Positions 2,142-55,916 of a stretch of 64,000 nucleotides of DNA are shown one piece after another (the stretch's first letter is position 1; each line of letters opens with the position of its first letter). Location of the stretch: NCBI GenBank assembly GCA_001898935.1, contig MKVT01000009.1:186001-250000 (forward strand), read 5' to 3'. Under the pieces are notes generated by a model. It had not been told where the DNA came from. It did no database searches and saw only the letters and a program-made list of their open reading frames with translations. This DNA comes from Paludibacter sp. 47-17. Lineage in GTDB: Bacteria; Bacteroidota; Bacteroidia; Bacteroidales; Paludibacteraceae. The translations under genes and the position numbers were made by a program.

Positions 2142-5100
2142 ATGGCAGTTATATCAGAGGACCATATAGAGCAAGTTGTAATTCAGGAATTCGTTGAATT
2201 GGGTTATCATTATCTCAATGGTGCTGATATATCGCCCGATGGTCATTCTCCCGAGCGTGAATACCGCGAAGTTATTTTGAAGTCCAGACTTCAAAATGCC
2301 ATTGCGTTAATCAATCCCACCGTGTTCCGGCAGATGCACAGGAAGAGGCCTTACGAAAAGTACTCCGTTCCGATAGTCCAAACTTATTTCAAAACAACTA
2401 TCAATTTCATAAATACCTCACCGATGGAGTTGATATTGAGTACCGTAAAGGAGATAGAATTGCAGGTGATAAAGTTTGGTTGATAGATTACAATAAGCCC
2501 GAAAACAATGAGTTTTTGGTTATCAATCAATTCACAATTATTGAGGGCAATGTAAACAAACGCCCGGATGTCATTTTTTTTGTAAACGGTTTGCCTTTTG
2601 TGGTTATTGAACTCAAAAACGCAGCTGACGAAAACGCAACCATAAAAACAGCTTTCAATCAACTACAGACCGACAAACAAGCCATTCCTTCCTTGTTTCA
2701 ATACAATGCCTTATTGATTGTTTCCGACGGTTGGGATGCTCTGTATGGTTCGCTTACAGCTCCCAAACAGTTCTTTGTACCTTGGAAATCTATTGACGGC
2801 AATGTGGTAGCAGATGAAAACATGCCACAAATGGAAGTAATAGCTAAAGGTATGCTCAATAAAAAAGTTCTGCTCGACCTTATCCGTCATTACATTGTAT
2901 TACACCAAAACAAAGACCAAATCACTAAAATAGTACCACGCTATCACCAATACTTCGCAGTCAACAAAGCGGTAGAAACTACAAAAAAGGCAACAGCTGT
3001 AAATGGTGACCAATGTGCAGGTGTTATTTGGCACACACAAGGCAGCGGTAAAAGTCTGAGTATGGTTTTTTATGCTGGTAAATTAGTATTGTCATTAAAC
3101 AATCCTACTTTGGTAGTACTGACAGACCGTAACGATTTAGACGACCAGCTTTTCGATACTTTTACTTCAAGTCAGGATTTACTTCGCCAAACGCCAGTAC
3201 AAGCTGAAAACAGAGACCATTTAAAAAGTTTACTTAGTGTTTCTTCGGGTGGTATTGTGTTTACAACTATTCAAAAGTTTTTACCTGAAATTGAAGAAAA
3301 AATTGAATTAGCTGATGGCAAATTCAAAAACATAAAAGGTCAATTCGAAGAATTATCGGACCGAAGAAATATCGTTGTTATTGCCGACGAAGCGCACCGC
3401 AGTCAATACGATTTTATGGACGGCTTTGCTTAACACATGCGTGATGCTTTGCCTAATGCTTCATTTATTGGCTTTACAGGTACTCCAATTGAAAACACAG
3501 ACAAGACTACACAAGCTGTTTTTGGTGATTATATCGATGTCTACGACATTCAGCAAGCAGTTGAAGATGGAGCGACTGTGCGTATTTTCTACGAAAATCG
3601 TTTAGCGAAAATCACTCTCAAAGAAGAAGAAGAAGAAGAAGAAAAACCCCGTGTTGATGCTGAATTTGAAGAACTAACAGAGGGTGAAGAAACAACAAGC
3701 AGTCAACAATTAAAAGCCAAATGGGCAAGGCTCGAAGCTATTGTAGGCAACGAACACCGATTACAACTCATTGCAGCCGATATTGTAAACCACTTTGAGC
3801 AACGAAATGAAATACTCGACGGAAAAGGTATGATCGTCTGTATGAGCCGCCGTATATGTTGATTTATACGATGAAATAATCAAAATCAGACCCGATTGGC
3901 ATAGTGAGGATGATACAGAAGGAGCAATAAAAGTCGTTATGACTGGCTCTTCTTCCGACCCATTAAATTTTCAACCACACGTCAGAAATAAACCCAAGCG
4001 GAAAGCTTTGGGTGAAAGACTGAAAGACCCGAAAGATAAACTGAAATTAGCCATTGTTCGTGATATGTGGCTAACAGGTTTCGATGCCCCTGTGTTGCAT
4101 ACCCTTTACATTGACAAGCCAATGAAAGGGCATAACCTTATGCAGGCCATAGCGCGTGTAAACCGTGTTTATAAAGACAAAGAGGGCAGTTTAATTGTTG
4201 ATTACATTGGTATTGTTACAGAGCTCAAAAAAGCCTTATCGGTTTACACGGATAATGGCGGGAAAGGTGCTCCAACTTTCGACCAGGAAGAAGCAGCTTC
4301 AGTGATGATGAGTAAATATGAAATTTTGGCTCAAATGTTCAAAGAACAACCCACCGATAAATCTCAACCGAAAGGTTTCGATTATAATTCATTTTTTACT
4401 TTGTCACCAAAGCAAAAATTATATTTCCCAATTCAGGCAGCTAATTATATTTTAGGATTAGAAAGTGGGAAAGACCGTTTTATTAATGCTGTAACAGCAT
4501 TGTCAAAATCATTTGCTATTTCAGTTCCACACCCCTATACACTTGAAATCAGGGATGAAGTTGGTTTATTTCAAGCCATTAAAGTTCGTATTGTAAAAGT
4601 AACCGAAAGCGCAAAAACAGGTAAAACTGACGAAGAGATTGAGACAGCTATAAAGCAAATTCTTTCAGATGCAATAGTTTCTGATGAAGTAGTAGATATC
4701 TTTGATGCTGCCGGCATTAAGAAACCAGATATTTCTATTTTATCTGATGAATTCTTAGCCGAGATAAAAGGTATGCAACATAAAAACCTTGCATTTGAAT
4801 TGCTCAAAAAACTATTGAATGACGAGATAAAATCACGCAGAAAAACCAACTTGGTACAGTCCAAGAAATTCTCTGAAATGTTAGATCAGGTAGTCCGAAA
4901 TTATCAGAATAACCTTATAACATCCGCAGAAATTATTGAAGAAATGATTCGGCTTGCCAAAGAGATTAAAGAAGCTGACCGGAAAGGAGAAGGTTTAGGT
5001 TTAGATTTCAGAGAATTTGCTTTTTATTCAGCCTTAGAAGTGAATGATAGTGCTGTATCGATTTTAGGTAACGATGTTTTACGACATATCGCACGTGAAT

Positions 5101-5356
5101 TAGTTGACACTGTTGCAAGAACACAAGCATAGATTGGACTGTGAGGGAAAATGTTCAAGCAAAAATGAGAATTGCAGTCAAAAAGATTCTTCGCAAACAT
5201 GGCTATCCTCCTGATATGGAAGTTAAAGCCACCGAAACCGTTATTGAGCAGGCTAAACTACTTGCAGAGAGTTTTACAAGCAAAAGTAATTATCATATAG
5301 GAAATAATAATCAGAATCTTGAAGCTGCAGAACCCAGAACAAGTAGATTAGTATAA
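2142..5356 (+). pseudogene. hsdR: Type I restriction endonuclease subunit HsdR, broken by three frameshifts and a stop
   Basis: Five ORF-track pieces (2142-2483, 2480-3433, 3437-3862, 3939-5132, 5141-5356) join into one HsdR of roughly 1,070 residues. Visible motifs in order are the N-terminal nuclease region (IVIELKNAADENATI), Walker A (HTQGSGKSLSM), the DEAH box (VVIADEAHRSQYDF), motif III (GFTGTPIE), the helicase motif [12 protein letters not shown] and the C-terminal RKHGYPPD region. The breaks are: (1) near 2322-2326, an extra GT, after which the frame reads PADAQEEAL; (2) an in-frame TAA at 3431-3433 between DGFA and HMRDALP; (3) near 3857, loss of two bases between SRRIC and VDLYDEI; (4) near 5114, loss of one base before [12 protein letters not shown]. 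As written, no functional restriction subunit can be made. Sequencing error cannot be excluded, although the neighbouring genes are intact. Confidence 0.9.
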
Positions 5357-36744: not shown

Positions 36745-36785
36745 GAATAAAGGGACGGCTGGTAGAATCGGTTGTCCCTTTATTC
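36745..36785 (+). terminator. Stem-loop after ileS
   Basis: GAATAAAGGGAC and GTCCCTTTATTC form a 12-bp perfect stem with a 17-nt loop, 15 bp after the ileS stop and 9 bp before the next start. There is no T run after the stem, so termination may be partial. Confidence 0.6.
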
Positions 36786-36794
36786 GACTCAATC

Positions 36795-39050
36795 ATGAAT
36801 TTTAACCCTATAAAACTAATATTAATTCTGGCCTGTATGCAATGCTTGTTTGTTTCGCAAGCTAAAACCGGCCCTGTAAATTGCTTTTCGTATGCGGTGG
36901 TGGAACCGGACACTCTGCCCGTCCTTCAGCTCATGAAAGAAGGTGTAAGAGCATTTCGTGCTGAAAACAAAGAAGAACTCGAAAATTTAATCGCGTTGAG
37001 CGAGCAACTGTTGGCGACCGACAGCACCTTCATTTTTATACTGGCCAGCGACAAGTTGATTTCCGAATCCCAACAGCTGTTAGCCAACCACGAACATCTC
37101 TACAACTTCAACCAACTTCCCTGGCCTACTGCAAAAGAGCTGAAATATTCCAACCAATCCGCCATCCTATTAAGCACGCAACAAACCATTCAGAAAATTA
37201 GCTCTTTATCGGACAGATACAACGGCAAAGCAGATTATATCGTATGGAAATGCCCGGAAGAACTCCCCGATTATGCGTCCTTATACACGTTTTGGAACCT
37301 CAATGCACAGCCTGTGAATTTCTTTGAATGTAACTACGGGCAACTTCGCCAGGTACAAGAACTCATTCAGAAATTAAATCAAACCGACAGAATCTCGGGC
37401 TGCTTTATGTCCGGAGGAAAGCTGATCAACGGAGTAACCATCAATGCGAGCGACAACTACCTTTCCAATACTCAATTTTGTTTCCCTTTTAAAGAATTCA
37501 TCAACTTAAAAACACAGAAGAACAGTTATGAGTTAATCCCTCAATGGATACTTGCCCACTCCTCCACAGACTATATGTATTCCGTCATTGAGGCTACCCG
37601 CATTCCCATCGCAACCGGCAAAATACTGCACCTGAAATCTTCAGGAAAAAGTCAGTATCCCGGGGGGAACAAAAACCTGTTCCGGAACCATGGCGTAAAA
37701 ATTCATAAAGACGACACCGGGACATTCCATCATTTCGACGGGAACGCATTCTACACATTTGCAACCGACGAATTGAAAGATAGTTTGTTGAATATAACGC
37801 TATCAACTCGCTTTCGAATCACAAAACCAGCCACCTACCACTCCATCATTTGTCAAGGTTTAAATTTCATACTTAAGGTTCATCGCGGTTTTTTATGTTT
37901 GACCATCCCAACCCAAGCCGACTACTATTTGTCCGGTATCCCTATTGAGCTTAATACCTGGTATACGATTTCGCTGGTAATTACCGAAGGCAGCAAGCTG
38001 AAAGTGTATACGAACGGAGAACTCAACGACACAATAACCATACCTCCCATAAGTACCGGAACTGACTTGTTCATGATAGGCAACAGCCCTTATCAGGAAC
38101 GCTTTCAAGGCGATATTCGTGATATTCAGCTGTGGAATCGCGGACTGGACAGTACGGACATTGCCGGATTATACTCCCCCCAAAAAAACATCAACTTCTG
38201 TTGGCTGGTTCTGATCCCGGTTATTTTTCTTTCAATTCTATCAGGAATCGTTCTGTTCCGACGAAAACGGCAACGGGCGCCGGTACCTCCGACAGCAAAA
38301 GTCGAAAAGCCAGGAAGGATGCTAACATCCAAACCGCCGGGCCATCACAACAGTTTATTTCTTTTCGGCGAATTCTCATTATTCAACAATACGGGCGAGA
38401 ATTTAATGAACCAGATGTCGCCCAAAACCCAACAGTTATTCTTGCTGGTTACGCTTAAAACCCTCCTTGGCGATGGAATTACCACGCGAGAACTGAATGA
38501 TGTACTCTGGCCGGGAATGCACGATGCTGCGGCAAAAAATAACAGAGGCGTCACGATATTCAATCTCCGCCAGGTGATGTCCGTTTCCACGGGCCTCATG
38601 CTTGATTATGCCGATAAACATTGGACTATCAAAGGATTGGAAAACTATTACATTGACTTTCAAGCTTTCAGACAACAAAAGGAAGTGTTTTCGGCAAATA
38701 CAACAAACCTCACTTTATTAAATGACTTACTCGATATCCTTTCGCAACCTTTCCTGCAAAGCATTCAGTTGGAGTGGCTCGATAGTTATAAAAACAACGT
38801 GAACGAGGAGCATCTCAAGTGGTTAATGACTGTTTCAACCCTGCCGGCAGTTCGGCAGCAACCTGATGTGATGCTAAAAATTGCAACGGCCATGTTTGCA
38901 ATCGACGAAGTAAACGAAACTGCATTGCATTTGCGGATAAATGCTTACCGAAATAAAGGATTCGAAGCGTTGGCGCGAACAAGCCTCGAGAATTTCAAAA
39001 AAAGATACCGGCTTTTATACAACGAAGAATATTCGCATGTGGATTTCTGA
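36795..39050 (+). CDS. Predicted membrane-spanning transcription regulator: external LamG domain, one TM helix, cytoplasmic winged helix
   Basis: A 751-residue protein with an unusual order of parts. A signal peptide (IKLILILACMQCLFVSQA) is followed by an unrecognised extracytoplasmic region (about 27-295). A LamG/concanavalin-like domain comes next (about 305-465, with LNTWYTISLVITEGSKLKVYTNGE and GDIRDIQLWNRGL). One transmembrane helix (about 475-495, CWLVLIPVIFLSILSGIVLF) is followed by a basic stop-transfer RRKRQR. The cytoplasmic part has an OmpR/SARP-like winged helix (about 530-640: LFLFGEFSLFNNTGENL, TTRELNDVLWPGMHDAAAKN, RGVTIFNLRQVM) and then a helical BTAD-like tail. This suits a one-component sensor that reads glycan outside and controls genes inside. 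It lies 100 bp upstream of the surface glycosidase cluster, its likely target. Codon composition is more AT-rich than in neighbours. The DNA-binding role is inferred from the fold pattern. Confidence 0.7.
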   Translation: MNFNPIKLILILACMQCLFVSQAKTGPVNCFSYAVVEPDTLPVLQLMKEGVRAFRAENKEELENLIALSEQLLATDSTFIFILASDKLISESQQLLANHEHLYNFNQLPWPTAKELKYSNQSAILLSTQQTIQKISSLSDRYNGKADYIVWKCPEELPDYASLYTFWNLNAQPVNFFECNYGQLRQVQELIQKLNQTDRISGCFMSGGKLINGVTINASDNYLSNTQFCFPFKEFINLKTQKNSYELIPQWILAHSSTDYMYSVIEATRIPIATGKILHLKSSGKSQYPGGNKNLFRNHGVKIHKDDTGTFHHFDGNAFYTFATDELKDSLLNITLSTRFRITKPATYHSIICQGLNFILKVHRGFLCLTIPTQADYYLSGIPIELNTWYTISLVITEGSKLKVYTNGELNDTITIPPISTGTDLFMIGNSPYQERFQGDIRDIQLWNRGLDSTDIAGLYSPQKNINFCWLVLIPVIFLSILSGIVLFRRKRQRAPVPPTAKVEKPGRMLTSKPPGHHNSLFLFGEFSLFNNTGENLMNQMSPKTQQLFLLVTLKTLLGDGITTRELNDVLWPGMHDAAAKNNRGVTIFNLRQVMSVSTGLMLDYADKHWTIKGLENYYIDFQAFRQQKEVFSANTTNLTLLNDLLDILSQPFLQSIQLEWLDSYKNNVNEEHLKWLMTVSTLPAVRQQPDVMLKIATAMFAIDEVNETALHLRINAYRNKGFEALARTSLENFKKRYRLLYNEEYSHVDF

Positions 39051-39103
39051 AAAAACAAGATAATTAACCGTCTTGTTAGCCGATATTTTAATCCTGGCTC
39101 CTC

Positions 39104-39111
39104 TATTTTTG
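39104..39111 (+). promoter_or_regulatory. -7 box for the GH89 gene
   Basis: TATTTTTG fits TAnnTTTG and lies 39 bp before the start. The nearest TTG upstream is 28 bp away, too far for a standard -33. A 7-bp hairpin AACAAGA/TCTTGTT (39054-39077) lies just before it. Confidence 0.4.
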
Positions 39112-39150
39112 CGTATCAACAGTTGTTGTTAAACTTAAAACGCAAAAATC

Positions 39151-42100
39151 ATGAAACAAAGAATTACCACCTTATTGGTTGTCGCTATTCTGACGGCAAT
39201 TTCGTCAGTTGCCCGAAACAGCGCTCCGTTTGACAAGTTTGGTGCGCAGGCTCAAGCCCTGAGCGGCACAAATTCGCCAAGTGCCGATTATGCGGTTTCA
39301 TTCGACGGAAATTCTTCGCTGAAACCATCAGGGGCAATCCCTCCATTTGGCTCTACCTTTACCATTTCGGGTTGGATTTTCCCAGCCTTGAATACTTCCG
39401 GAACCATACGCACTATCGCCTCCTGGGCGTCGACAGGTAGCGGCGCTGTAGGGAATTTTTTCCGGATCGAAGGCGACGATAATTTATTTTACGGACAATG
39501 GAACGGAACGTTTAAGAAAGCACGGTCGACTACCCAGCTCAGTTTTGGGAAATGGCAACACGTAGCGCTGGTGAAGGATAACAATACCCTGCGTTTTTAC
39601 ATCAATGGCAAGGAAAGCACCGCTGTTTATACCAACGGCGCAGCTCCCATGAACAACAACTCCACAAGCGACGGATTCAGGTTTGGCGGATTGTATCAAA
39701 ACGGATCATTCGTTGAAGCCTTCAAGGGGCAAATGAACGATCTGGCTTTTTATACTTCGGCCCGGACGGCTGCCCAGCTTTCGGCCGAATACACTGAGGG
39801 GGTAGATACTTCGGAACCTTCCCTGTGGGGATACTGGGACTTTAACGACAAAGCTGCGGTAGCAACCGATAAGTCGGGCAAGGGAAATTCCTTAACCCTG
39901 ATGGGGAATATTCAATATACCGAAAAGATGGAGGAACTCATTCCCGATGGAGGAACGCTGAGCACCGGACAGGCAAAAAACACGACCGTTCATGCCTATA
40001 TCCACTCCAATGCTCCGGGCAAATTGTATTGGGCTGTTTATCCTTCGCCGACTCCGGCCATCACCGTACAAGACGTAAAAAACGGCACGAATTCGCTCCG
40101 TTCGGGCGTTAAAGAGTACCAAACACATCCGTACACCGATTTCTGGATCATCAACCGTCTTAACCCGGCCGGTACCTACACGTTGTACGGGATACTCGAA
40201 GTACCCGGAACCGAGGACAAACTGATTTCAACCCCTTTCAGCACAACGAATTCGACAAGGGATTTATCTTCACAAATCACAGCCGTACAGTCGCTTATGC
40301 AACGAATGCTACCCGCCAGAGCCTCCGAATTCGAATTTACGGCCATCGAGCCGGTCGACGATGTGCTCGATGTATTCGAGCTACGTTCAGAGGGTGGAAA
40401 GATAAAGGTCGGCGGCAGTTCGGCCACCGCCATGGCGGCGGGTGTGCGTTATTACCTGAATACGTACTGCAACGCGTCGTTCTCGTGGAATGGCGATCAG
40501 AATATTTTACCCAGCCCCCTCCCCGCACTCTCCGCACCTGTACGTAAAGAAACCACTTACCGGCATCGGTATGCCCTGAATTATTGTACGCTGAACTACA
40601 CCATGTCGTTTTGGGACTGGGAGCGTTGGGAACGTGAAATCGACCTGATGGCGACGCAGGGTGTGAACCTGTTTCTTTCAGGCATTGGCACCGAGGCAGT
40701 ATGGCAAAACGTAATGCAGAAATACGGCTACACCTTCGACGAAATTCAGGAATTCATTCCCGGCCCGGCCTATACAGCCTGGTGGCTGATGGGAAATCTG
40801 GAGGGCGAAGGAGGTCCGGTGAGCCGGGAATATATAAACGGACGCGTAGCCTTACAAAAGAAAATAATTGCCCGCGCAAAGGAATTGGGCATGGAAGTAG
40901 TGTTGCAGGGATTCTGTGGCTTTGCACCTACTACCATCGGCAGTAAAATTCCGGGGATTACAGTTCACGGCCAGGGCGAATGGGTGAGCGGATACAAGCG
41001 TCCGGTAGTGGTAAGCGGACCCAAGGCTTTCGAACTCGCTGCCAGCTGGTACGAAGAATCGGCCCAAATATTCGGCGTAGCCAACTACTATGGCGGCGAC
41101 CTTTTTCATGAAGGCGGTCGGGTTCCGGCCGGCATGGATGTAACGCAATTTGCTGCCGACATCCAGGCCGAAATGCTGAAAGCCAATCCCAATGCGGTTT
41201 GGGTGCTTCAATCGTGGCTCCACAACCCCAAACCCGAACTACTGGTGGGGCTCAAAAAAGACCAAACACTGGTTATCGATTTGGGCAACGAACGCGACAA
41301 TGGCTGGTTGCGCGATGCACCGGCCGCGTTTACCAATATCCCCTGGGTATACAGTGTCATTCAGAATTTCGGAGGACGAATGGGTATCTACTCGCGGCTG
41401 CAACGCATTGCCGACAATCACTACGAAATGCTTCATCATGCAAAGAAAGGCAACAACTGGGGAATAGGTATTGCCCCCGAAGCCATCACCTTCAATCAGG
41501 TAGGATACGATATACTATGGAATATGGTGTGGGAAACAGGCAAAATCGATATCCAGGAATACGTTAAACGGTTTGCGAGCTATCGTTACGGCCAGCAACT
41601 GGAAGAAACCACTGCGGCCTGGCAGCTACTCGCCACTACTGCCCTCAATTGCCCGGGAAGCAGCTGGCAGGACGGAGCCTCGGAATCGGTCATCAATGCG
41701 CGGCCGGCGCTGGACATTACAAAAGCTTCGTCGTGGTCGACCACCTCCCTGTATTATGATGCGAAAGCCATTTTACCCGCCTGGACAGGGATGTTGAAAG
41801 CTGCCGGCCAGCTTGCCGACAAAACCACCTATCGTTTCGACCTGGTAGACATTACCCGGCAATGCCTGTCGAACTACGCGCAAGACCTACAAAAAGAAGT
41901 AACGGCTGCCTTCCGTGCTAAAAACAAAACCCTTTTTGCCTCCAAAAGCAGGCTGTTCCTCGAACTGATACTCGATATGGACAGTTTATTGCGTACCCGC
42001 CGGGAATGCATGTTGGGCCCGTGGATAGCCGGCGCACGCGCACTGGGAACCAACGAAGCCGAAAAAGACCTGTTCGAGATGAATGCACGGGCACTGGTGA

Positions 42101-42651
42101 CCACCTGGGACATGAAAAAAGACGGTGCGCTCCACGATTATTCGCACCGCGAGTGGGCCGGACTCACCAAAAGCCTGTATTACGAACGTTGGAAGCTATT
42201 TTTGAGCGACTTGCAGGGACAATTGGATGGCAAAGCAGCACAAAACAACAACTTTTTCACGAAGCTTGAATATCCGTGGATTTCGAAATTCGGCGAGCTG
42301 CACAACACGCAGCCGGAAGGCGATGAGATCGAAATGTCGGTTTATTTGTACAACAAATACATGCCGTTGATACAAAACACCACCAATAATACAACGATCG
42401 ACCTGCCCCCTAACAACAACCGGTTGATACTTTATCCCAATCCAGCTACGGAGCAATGTCGCCTGCAATTTCCAGTTGAACAAATACTAACCGTAACAGT
42501 CACCGATCTGCAGGGGAAAGTGCACTTGAGCAGCCGGGAAGCAGGCGCCACTATCACCTTACACACCCATACGCTCTCCAATGGAGTTTACTTCGTACAC
42601 CTGCACAACGAGAACATCAATACTTCCCTGAAATTAATAGTCGAACGCTAA
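39151..42651 (+). CDS. Surface alpha-N-acetylglucosaminidase (GH89) with LamG domain and T9SS sorting signal
   Basis: A 1,166-residue secreted enzyme. A signal peptide (LLVVAILTAISSVA) precedes a LamG domain (about 45-240, FTISGWIFPALN and KWQHVALVKDNNTLRFYINGK). The NAGLU N-terminal domain (about 370-455) contains SEGGKIKVGGSSATAMAAGVRYYLN. The NAGLU catalytic barrel (about 465-810) starts YRHRYALNYCTLNYTMSFWDWERW and contains candidate acidic residues in SGIGTEAVWQ and YYGGDLFHEGGR. The helical C-terminal domain follows (about 820-1060). The final 80 residues are a T9SS type A sorting domain (ILYPNPATEQCRLQF). GH89 enzymes release terminal alpha-linked GlcNAc from heparan sulfate or mucin caps. 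It lies directly after the putative LamG regulator and at the head of the sialidase cluster. Confidence 0.92.
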   Translation: MKQRITTLLVVAILTAISSVARNSAPFDKFGAQAQALSGTNSPSADYAVSFDGNSSLKPSGAIPPFGSTFTISGWIFPALNTSGTIRTIASWASTGSGAVGNFFRIEGDDNLFYGQWNGTFKKARSTTQLSFGKWQHVALVKDNNTLRFYINGKESTAVYTNGAAPMNNNSTSDGFRFGGLYQNGSFVEAFKGQMNDLAFYTSARTAAQLSAEYTEGVDTSEPSLWGYWDFNDKAAVATDKSGKGNSLTLMGNIQYTEKMEELIPDGGTLSTGQAKNTTVHAYIHSNAPGKLYWAVYPSPTPAITVQDVKNGTNSLRSGVKEYQTHPYTDFWIINRLNPAGTYTLYGILEVPGTEDKLISTPFSTTNSTRDLSSQITAVQSLMQRMLPARASEFEFTAIEPVDDVLDVFELRSEGGKIKVGGSSATAMAAGVRYYLNTYCNASFSWNGDQNILPSPLPALSAPVRKETTYRHRYALNYCTLNYTMSFWDWERWEREIDLMATQGVNLFLSGIGTEAVWQNVMQKYGYTFDEIQEFIPGPAYTAWWLMGNLEGEGGPVSREYINGRVALQKKIIARAKELGMEVVLQGFCGFAPTTIGSKIPGITVHGQGEWVSGYKRPVVVSGPKAFELAASWYEESAQIFGVANYYGGDLFHEGGRVPAGMDVTQFAADIQAEMLKANPNAVWVLQSWLHNPKPELLVGLKKDQTLVIDLGNERDNGWLRDAPAAFTNIPWVYSVIQNFGGRMGIYSRLQRIADNHYEMLHHAKKGNNWGIGIAPEAITFNQVGYDILWNMVWETGKIDIQEYVKRFASYRYGQQLEETTAAWQLLATTALNCPGSSWQDGASESVINARPALDITKASSWSTTSLYYDAKAILPAWTGMLKAAGQLADKTTYRFDLVDITRQCLSNYAQDLQKEVTAAFRAKNKTLFASKSRLFLELILDMDSLLRTRRECMLGPWIAGARALGTNEAEKDLFEMNARALVTTWDMKKDGALHDYSHREWAGLTKSLYYERWKLFLSDLQGQLDGKAAQNNNFFTKLEYPWISKFGELHNTQPEGDEIEMSVYLYNKYMPLIQNTTNNTTIDLPPNNNRLILYPNPATEQCRLQFPVEQILTVTVTDLQGKVHLSSREAGATITLHTHTLSNGVYFVHLHNENINTSLKLIVER

Positions 42652-43018: not shown

Positions 43019-46000
43019 ATGAAAAAATTGCTACACATCTCAGCTTTACTTGTGGTGCAGCTTCTCTACACCCAAAGTTACGCAGCGGCCGTCATGCCGC
43101 AGGTGAGTGCCGGATCAGTGGAATACTGGTACCACATTTCTTTTCAAAACGGCACAAACATGGTGCTTCAGGACAATGGAGAAGATGCCATTCTGACCAC
43201 ACAGGCTATTTCGGTAGGAGCAGACAATCAGCTTTGGAAATTTGAAGCATCTGCAACAAGCGGAGAGTATGTTTTTACTTCAAAAGCGGGCAGAAAAATT
43301 TATTGGGACGGAACTGCTTCCCGATTCAAGGCAGGAAGCGACGACACACCCACCAATATTAAATTCATTGCCTCTGCAAACACAACCAGACCCAATTCAT
43401 GGGAATTGCAACGCACCGGATCGACCCGGGCTATGAATCCAAACGGCGGAGCAAGCGCCGGCAGCCAAATAGGCGAATGGTACCTGGGCGATATCGGCAA
43501 CACGATCAAATTCCACACCGCACCTTTTAAAACAAGCTCGGGAGCTACCGAGTACTGGTATCAGCTCGTATTTCAGCGATACACCGGCAACCTGGCTATC
43601 CGCGACAATGGTGAAGATGCGATCCTTACCTCCGAAACACTGGTGGCAGGCGCCGAAAATCAGCTCTGGAAGATTGAAGTATCAGTTAATCCCGGTTTTT
43701 ATATTTTCACGTCGAAGGCAGGGCGAAAAATCTATTGGGACGGAACTGCTTCGCGATTTAAAGCAGGAAGCGACGATACCGGAGTCGATCTTAAAACCTT
43801 AATGTCGGGCAACAACGACTACGCTCTGTCCTGGGAACTTCAGCGGACCGGATCGAGCAACGGATTAAATCCATACGGAGGTTCGTCGGCCGGAAGACAA
43901 TTAGGAGAAACGACCTTGGGAGATGGCGGGAATGTACTGAGATTTATTTCCGCACAGAATTTTCTCCGGAATGCCATAACTACTGCACAGAATAAACTGA
44001 CGAACACCCTTGCAGGAAGCGATCCGGGCACGTATACCACCGCCGACCGTACAACACTGGGAAATGCCATTAACACGGCAATAACCGCTTTGTCAGGCTC
44101 CTCGACCGATGCAGAATACCTGACTGCCAAGACCAACCTGGAAACGGCTGTAAGTACGTATACCAATTCGGTAATCACACCTCAACTCAGCACGCCGGGG
44201 GACGAACGTTGGTATTATATCCAGGGAACACGTCCGGCCAACACCTACCTGTCGAGCAACGGAGCAGGGGCTCAGCTTTCATCCAAAACCGTAATACCCG
44301 ACGACACCCAGTTATGGAAATTTGTGGCCAATACCAACAGCCCGGCCAATGGTTTTGCAATGGTGAATAAAGCTACCGGCGAATACCTGAACGCCAACAC
44401 CCCCTACAACACCAGCATCAATTCGGTGGCAACCATGCCCACCAATAATCTGCAATTTATCGCCAGCGATATCTACTCTGATAAAATAGTTCGCTTCTGG
44501 ATCGAAAACACTGCCGGATCGACACCTGTTTTCCGCCTGCACGCAGGTAATCCGAATATATTGAACTGGAACGGTAATGCATACGACAACAGTAGCTGGC
44601 TAATCCTGGACTACAACGTGGCACAGAAAGTTTTCCTTCAAACCAGCATCAACGACGCTGCCGGTTTATTGGCCGGTACTACCCAGGGAAGTTATTTTGG
44701 AGAATACACTGCCGAAGCCCGCAGCACCTTACAAACAGCTATAAACACTGCTCAGGCCGTTCACGATGATCCTTCGGCAACGATCACCGAAATTCAAGAT
44801 CAGCGGACCGCCATACAGGCTGCAATCGCTACTTACAAAGCAGCTGCAAACTCCGATATCAACGGACTTGTTTCGACCAGCCCCTACAAGTACCGTTGGT
44901 ACAGAATTAAAAACAGAAATTATTCCTCTAACGATATCATAAGCTCCAATGGAGTTGCGGAAAATGGCGGTATAATCACACAAAATGCAGGAACTGCTAC
45001 CGACAACGAACTGTGGCGGTTTGAAATAAATACCGGAGGAACGGCTGTGAAAATCATCAACAAAGCAACCGGCCTGGCTATCAAAGAAAACGGTCAAAGC
45101 GCCCAATCTACTTTAGTAAAACCGGCAAGCGCCACCGAGTTTACCTTCACGCGTATTGATCTGTTTTGGGCCATCGGACGTGTAGGTGCAACGCAATATC
45201 AATACCTGCATCGTGACGGATCTTCGCGATTAGTAGGCTGGGAATCGTCGGCAACAGCTTCCAACTGGGCATTGCAATTTGTAGAGGAAGCCGAAATACC
45301 CCTTGGCATTCCTGTAGCCCCGATGGTATCAACTACCGATAAACCGGTATATTACATGATCCAGTCGGCCTCCAACGGTTCGGTCAACTTAAGTGGCGGA
45401 GGGAAAAATTACCTGGATCATTTACTGTATGCACCGACCAACACCAACAATGTGAATCTCAAACACGATAAACGCTCGACCCTTATCGGCGCCGGCATCA
45501 GTATGGATAATGCATTATGGCAACTGATCGAAGAAGGAGGGAAACTTAAACTAAAAAACAAAGGTACCGGGCTGTATATGAACGATGCACGCTTCGGTAC
45601 AACGGTGAGCGATCAAACCTTCTCGGCTGTTCCGATAAGCGGCACCACCAATCAATACCTGCTTAAGACTTCAACCCAGGCGAATCCCGCGGTAGCCTGG
45701 TACAATGAGGCTAACGGCAACTATATTGACCGCTGGGGCTCTACCGCCGCCAATAGTCAAGTAGCCTGGTACTTTATTGCTCCTGCATTCTCGGGCACTT
45801 CCGACTTCAGCAATGCTGCCGACTGGACCAATGGTGTCGTTCCTGCCGATAACATGGCCGTTGCGATCAACAGCAACGCTACCATCGCTACCGACAAAGC
45901 GTTTAACGGTCTGCATATCGCTACCGGCAAAACCCTCACGGTAAATGCAGGAAAGGGATTAACCGTTCACAATTCCATCACAGGAAGCGGAACCTTACTT

Positions 46001-47341: not shown

Positions 47342-47509
47342 ATGAACAACAAGCAAATCAAACCCTACGAAAGTCCGGAAATAGCATTAGTACTGCTTGA
47401 CCACGAAATCTCACTGCAACTTGCATCGGATCCGGATCCGATGGGAGAACCCGACTGGACAAGTAAGGCTCAAGACAATTTCACGAGCGATCCTTATCAA
47501 TTAATCTGA
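47342..47509 (+). CDS. 55-residue protein of unknown function, copy 1 (not in ORF track)
   Basis: The ORF runs from ATG at 47342 to TGA at 47507-47509, beginning 9 bp after the stop of the giant lectin-like protein. Its product reads YESPEIALVLLDHEISLQLASD, then PMGEPDWTSKAQDNF and DPYQLI at the end. It has no signal peptide, transmembrane segment or cysteine and is acidic. A second gene at 55749-55916 encodes a clear homologue in the same position after another T9SS protein, which makes it very likely to be a real, selected gene. A strong terminator follows, so it is the last gene of a two-gene unit. Small proteins starting Y-x-x-PEI are common in Bacteroidota as I recall; function unknown. 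Confidence 0.8.
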   Translation: MNNKQIKPYESPEIALVLLDHEISLQLASDPDPMGEPDWTSKAQDNFTSDPYQLI

Positions 47510-55748: not shown

Positions 55749-55916
55749 ATGAACGAATATCGAAACAACCGCTACGAGCGTCCGGAAATAACACAGGTAC
55801 AACTTGATCTTGAAATTTCACTTCAGCTTGCATCGGATGTAAATCCTATGGAAGAACCCGACTGGACGAGTAAGGCTCCGGAAAATTTCACAAACGATCC
55901 GTATCAACTTACCTAA
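55749..55916 (+). CDS. 55-residue protein of unknown function, copy 2 (not in ORF track)
   Basis: The ORF runs from ATG at 55749 to TAA at 55914-55916, starting 9 bp after the beta-helix protein stop. The product (YERPEITQVQLDLEISLQLASD, then PMEEPDWTSKAPENF and DPYQLT) is 55 residues long like copy 1 and identical to it at most positions of the middle and C-terminal parts. The shared core is LDxEISLQLASDxxPMxEPDWTSKA. The conservation of length, spacing and sequence while the N-termini vary argues for selection on the protein. It lacks cysteines and membrane segments, and no modifying enzyme is nearby. Confidence 0.8.
   Translation: MNEYRNNRYERPEITQVQLDLEISLQLASDVNPMEEPDWTSKAPENFTNDPYQLT

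Follow-up and report, generated by a model that had tools for sequence, protein, structure and literature searches.

The product of the ORF at 36795–39050 is very probably an inner-membrane, one-component activator of the SARP type that acts on the adjacent GH89 gene via a predicted operator. The domain layout of this regulator, its SARP fold, the operator at the GH89 promoter and the link between such operators and the regulator family were all established by computation. The relevant features of the window (the whole 64-kb stretch of DNA analyzed here) are as follows:

36795–39050, plus strand: membrane SARP-type regulator, an ORF of 751 aa
36795–36863, plus strand: signal peptide MNFNPIKLILILACMQCLFVSQA, predicted by eye and from hydropathy
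36876–37694, plus strand: N-terminal ectodomain, residues about 28–300 (AF2 pLDDT mostly <50; without relatives in the searches)
37785–38165, plus strand: LamG / concanavalin A-like domain, residues 331–457 (Pfam; AF2 and Foldseek jelly-roll matches)
38193–38261, plus strand: TM helix, residues about 467–489, followed by the basic stop-transfer sequence RRKRQR (hydropathy)
38352–38633, plus strand: winged-helix DNA-binding domain, residues about 520–613 (AF2 model, Foldseek)
38643–39029, plus strand: BTAD-like helical repeat domain, residues about 617–745 (AF2 model, Foldseek)
39064–39094, plus strand: predicted operator TTAACCG / TTAGCCG / TTAATCC, direct repeats with a 12-bp period (sequence pattern)
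39104–39111, plus strand: -7 element TATTTTTG at the GH89 promoter, located 9 bp past repeat three and 47 bp ahead of the ATG
39151–42651, plus strand: GH89 alpha-N-acetylglucosaminidase with LamG and a T9SS sorting tail, the predicted target (1166 aa; Pfam)

Both ORFs were found where the original prediction had placed them, and its description of the regulator, with a signal peptide, a LamG domain, a single TM helix with a basic stop-transfer sequence, a winged helix and neither kinase nor receiver, was confirmed. The Kyte-Doolittle profile shows an N-terminal hydrophobic segment (1.78 at residue 3) and a peak of 2.67 at residues 470–488, which adjoins FRRKRQR. With one strong TM segment followed by RRKRQR, the expected topology is a cytoplasmic C-terminus and a periplasmic LamG side. 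A Pfam search of the protein returned no histidine kinase, receiver or AraC domain, and no sigma-70-like or anti-sigma cytoplasmic domain emerged from Pfam or Foldseek, the cytoplasmic part being a winged helix and a BTAD domain. A DNA-binding domain and a TM region thus reside in one polypeptide, which is how a transmembrane transcription regulator (TTR) is defined (PMC10269533). The term “trans-envelope”, under which the protein had been introduced, turned out to be too strong. The regulator has one inner-membrane helix and does not cross the outer membrane, and hence its LamG domain is placed in the periplasm. The GC content of the regulator gene is 43.7% compared with 50–56% in its neighbors, which suggests separate ancestry or acquisition. 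The stretch that separates ileS from the regulator gene holds a perfect 12-bp inverted repeat (GAATAAAGGGAC/GTCCCTTTATTC, 36745–36785), located 9 bp ahead of the regulator ATG.

The AF2 model of residues 505–751, which was built with a 20-sequence alignment, is a confident one (mean pLDDT 91.6, pTM 0.85) and contains the anticipated cytoplasmic winged helix, whose recognition helix spans residues about 577–597. In a Foldseek search with this model, each of the six PDB chains that scored E <0.001 was a SARP protein, aligned at full length (239–249 columns). The matches are to AfsR in transcription complexes (8hvr_I, E 9.8e-7; 8k60) and to EmbR (2fez, 2ff4), and the order of domains in the model, a winged helix and then a BTAD helical domain, is that of the SARP fold. 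The regulator sequence itself gave no hit to Trans_reg_C or BTAD and no match to a Pfam DNA-binding model, and weak hits to Trans_reg_C / BTAD were obtained for 2 of 20 relatives. Hence, SARP membership is based on the fold and the operator and not on sequence family. The one-component membrane regulator of the original prediction is supported by these AF2 and Foldseek results, which refine it to the SARP type.

The own genome contains one member of this regulator family. Members were found in 23 of the 300 genomes of the taxonomic family, and further classes and families of the phylum have members too. Truncated copies aside, the relatives are about 840–900 aa long, and all 19 that we examined have a Kelch region ahead of the TM helix. 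The window regulator is a divergent member in which the usual Kelch ectodomain is replaced. Homology between its ectodomain and those of the Kelch relatives was rejected: hhalign detected no likeness, so that the regulator joins a sensor of another kind to the output part common to the family. The MAFFT alignment forces the two ectodomains together and is not to be read in that region. Two further loci deserve mention. At L093 7402–9959, adjacent ORFs of 485 aa and 364 aa, the second of which contains the SARP domain, look like a split family member. At L096 9758–10573, a soluble 271-aa SARP paralogue adjoins a membrane member and has a perfect triple repeat with a 12-bp period (ATTAACCC) upstream.

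The ectodomain has a domain that the original description did not include, the N-domain (residues about 28–300). Searches of genomes from the order (393) and the class (395) returned no convincing relative, and AF2 gave no confident structure for it. A PI-PLC-like TIM barrel, suggested by eye, was unsupported by Pfam, by a PDB sequence search and by a PF00388 search of the own genome, and an EAL-domain match in one other genome (G206) looked like chance. The LamG part of the AF2 ectodomain model is better (pLDDT mostly 57–90 by block). Pfam identifies it as Laminin_G_3 (E 7.5e-13), and in Foldseek it matches concanavalin A-like jelly rolls, including the lectin domains of trypanosomal sialidases. 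It is only distantly similar to the LamG domain of the GH89 enzyme (23% over 77 aa, E 0.004), and the earlier suggestion that the two recognize related glycans gained nothing beyond family membership.

The predicted operator begins 14 bp after the regulator stop codon. A comparison with shuffled local sequence gave p 0.029 for the triple repeat. Since local shuffling alone gave only this value, we tested the triple repeat on the relatives, in which the predicted operator is a triple direct repeat TTAAYC/GTAACC with an 11- or 12-bp period, ending 8–9 bp before a -7 box TAnnTTTG. The geometry was fixed to an 11-bp period whose third repeat begins 15 bp ahead of TAnnTTTG, or to a 12-bp period with a distance of 16 bp. 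Self-repeat scores of 12 or more were then attained by 15 of 29 genes right after a regulator and by 9 of 176 genes further away. The Fisher p of 2.4e-9 is optimistic because this geometry was picked post hoc. About half of the relatives' +1 genes are without a detectable operator. A weight matrix derived from 17 relatives' sites, with the window site left out, scored 30.3 bits at the GH89 promoter (39104). This is first in the window by 18 bits, the next score on either strand of the 64 kb being 12.0 bits and that of five shuffled windows at most 13.1, and it falls in the range of the relatives' own sites when these are left out of the matrix (21–38). A 15-bp inverted repeat (87%) at 39105–39149 overlaps the GH89 -7 box and reaches the start codon region.

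At up to three mismatches, the GH89-promoter site is the sole match to the 12-bp consensus in the 4.2-Mb own genome. Its zero mismatches are by construction, as the consensus was drawn from it, and the informative part of the scan is that the own genome shows no second site. The 11-bp pattern occurs at 51 sites in 8 regulator-positive genomes compared with 2 sites in 9 genomes without a detected regulator, and the reversed pattern, used as a control, occurs once across all 18 genomes. These counts bear on whether the repeat at 39064 could be a general promoter element or the site of another regulator, with the membrane protein acting elsewhere. The AT-richness of the sequence and the p of 0.029 from local shuffling alone would be in line with such an element. 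However, sites are abundant where the regulator is present and nearly absent where none was detected, they are enriched at the gene adjoining the regulator, and the 12-bp pattern is found once in the own genome, beside its single family member. We consider such a general element or a site of another regulator very improbable. Three genomes (G192, G200 and G178) have 10–16 copies of the 11-bp operator each, and in G200 some eight of them lie on about 52 kb of contig 60 alone.

In the recognition helix, the residue before the conserved Asn is Lys in all TAACC/12-bp regulators, the window protein included, and Arg, Leu or Ser in all TTAA/11-bp regulators. The association, from which one may read an operator code of the membrane-SARP class (Lys, Arg, and Leu or Ser for TAACC, TTAATC and TTAAGG, respectively), was seen post hoc and is confounded by phylogeny.

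Genes below the 11-bp operators start shortly downstream and have signal peptides. They encode GH92 enzymes (8 of 44), metallophosphoesterases with CBMs, sulfatases, GH38, GH130, GH43 and GH2 enzymes and SusC-type receptors, and many are mannose- or sulfate-related. The regulators' neighbors within the taxonomic family include GtaA-like proteins (8 of 68), sulfatases (5) and also GH92, GH43 and GH125, and in the wider phylum sample the neighborhood is mixed. The association of homologues with glycosidase genes thus stands within the taxonomic family and via the operators, and is weaker elsewhere in the phylum. That the relatives' targets are overwhelmingly glycan enzymes speaks against a regulator that is otherwise as described but whose ectodomain senses a protein partner or the state of the envelope (for example, a secreted lectin or T9SS cargo) and not a free glycan. 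Protein binding is frequent among LamG and Kelch folds, the relatives' sensor is a different fold and the N-domain lacks a confident AF2 structure, and we regard such sensing of a protein or of the envelope state as a serious, if not the favored, possibility. The ligand of the regulator ectodomain is probably a glycan fragment.

The Pfam matches of the ORF at 39151–42651 (GH89/NAGLU, E 1.4e-97; its own LamG, E 1.3e-18) bear out the prediction of a LamG-containing GH89 enzyme. The rest of the 39–61 kb cluster encodes three sialidase-type and several lectin proteins, and the location of all genes from 39151 to 61463 on the same strand would suit control of the entire cluster by the regulator. 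However, five -7 boxes were seen in intergenic DNA between 39 and 62 kb, and the repeats accompany just one of them, that of the GH89 gene. The gene at 43019 has its own -7 box without them and scores 8.6 bits, mostly from the -7 box. As the GH89 promoter alone carries the operator, whole-cluster control is not supported and appears improbable. Of the control formerly deduced from position, the part concerning the GH89 gene now has sequence evidence behind it, whereas for the rest of the 39–61 kb region no other site was found.

Also of note in the window are two small ORFs (47342–47509 and 55749–55916), each just upstream of a sialidase-type gene. They encode similar 55-aa peptides, xYExPEIxxVxLDxEISLQLASD...EPDWTSKA...DPYQL, which have no Pfam match. 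Type I restriction HsdR at 2480–5132 appears to be in pieces, an N-terminal part (2480–3433) and a C-terminal part (3939–5132) separated by a 141-aa ORF (3437–3862), all on the plus strand, and it may be broken.

We propose that the periplasmic N-domain and LamG sense a ligand, probably a glycan fragment, and that the signal would pass through the single TM helix to the cytoplasmic winged-helix/BTAD domain. The latter is predicted to bind the three 12-bp-spaced direct repeats at 39064–39094, where side-by-side protomers, by analogy with SARP biochemistry, may bring in RNA polymerase at the -7 box (39104). This would switch on the neighboring gene for the surface GH89 enzyme, activation being presumed here over repression. 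In other family members the Kelch propeller would be the sensor, and mannosidase, sulfatase and SusC genes would be controlled via the same kind of operator. The cytoplasmic domain might also be freed by regulated proteolysis and become a soluble activator, as could be indicated by the scattered operator sites, of which a single genome has up to 16, and by the soluble paralogue in L096. However, the only site of the own genome, 14 bp past the regulator gene, suits a tethered protein, and we find proteolytic release unlikely.

Bacteroidota commonly have membrane one-component regulators (PMC10269533), and therefore the general kind to which the proposed tethered activator belongs is already known. 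Our literature search, for which subscription journals were mostly beyond reach, brought up no account of TM-SARP regulators with a Kelch or LamG ectodomain, nor of their operator. Reviews of glycan control in Bacteroidota give three regulator classes. Membrane-tethered SARPs probably constitute a further Bacteroidota-wide class beside HTCS, SusR and ECF/anti-sigma, with a readable operator code and exchangeable sensors, the LamG plus N-domain version being a single case so far. If so, this phosphorelay-free class with a defined operator would make regulons readable from sequence in many uncultured Bacteroidota, and orphan enzymes could be linked to sensors. Furthermore, the promoter architecture through which SARPs control antibiotics in Streptomyces would prove to work at the very different -7 promoter of Bacteroidota, and the natural ectodomain swaps would allow signal transfer through one TM helix to be studied. 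The match at the GH89 promoter suggests a little-described route to switch on glycan-degrading enzymes.

In SARP promoters, direct repeats are 11 or 22 bp apart and the 3' repeat is 8 bp from the -10 element (PMC10936776), and the PimR operator consists of three heptamers with 4-bp spacers (PMC5930380). The corresponding values are 11 and 8 in most relatives and 12 and 9 in the window. The window regulator has in common with the actinobacterial SARP activators (AfsR, EmbR, PimR) both the winged helix plus BTAD fold and the operator design, with repeats of 11 (or 12) bp placed 8–9 bp before the -10/-7 element. However, actinobacterial SARPs are soluble, whereas the window SARP domain lies on the C-terminal side of a TM helix that is preceded by a periplasmic sensor, and, unlike theirs, its operator stands at a Bacteroidota TAnnTTTG promoter. 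ToxR and CadC carry the DNA-binding domain at the N-terminus and the periplasmic domain at the C-terminus, so that their domain order is reversed relative to the window regulator, in which a BTAD domain is added. In other respects ToxR, CadC and the TTRs (PMC10269533) are alike with it, being one-component, single-pass proteins with a winged helix inside and a periplasmic sensor.

Similar to HTCS, SusR-like and ECF/anti-sigma systems (PMC3878776), the window regulator would be an adjacent, membrane-associated regulator of surface glycan-degradation genes, but it has no kinase, receiver or sigma factor. Its predicted operator is a tight triple repeat, whereas those systems have two sites with long or 21-bp spacing. 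The two sites of a SusR-type operator are about 67–77 bp apart (PMC3878776), and this motif description sets SusR-like regulators apart from the window regulator, with its predicted operator of three sites 12 bp apart. Finally, the Kelch-TM-SARP relatives are homologous to the window regulator in the TM-adjacent and cytoplasmic parts and have the same operator design and glycan-gene neighborhood, but their ectodomain is a Kelch propeller, whereas that of the window regulator is an N-domain plus LamG.
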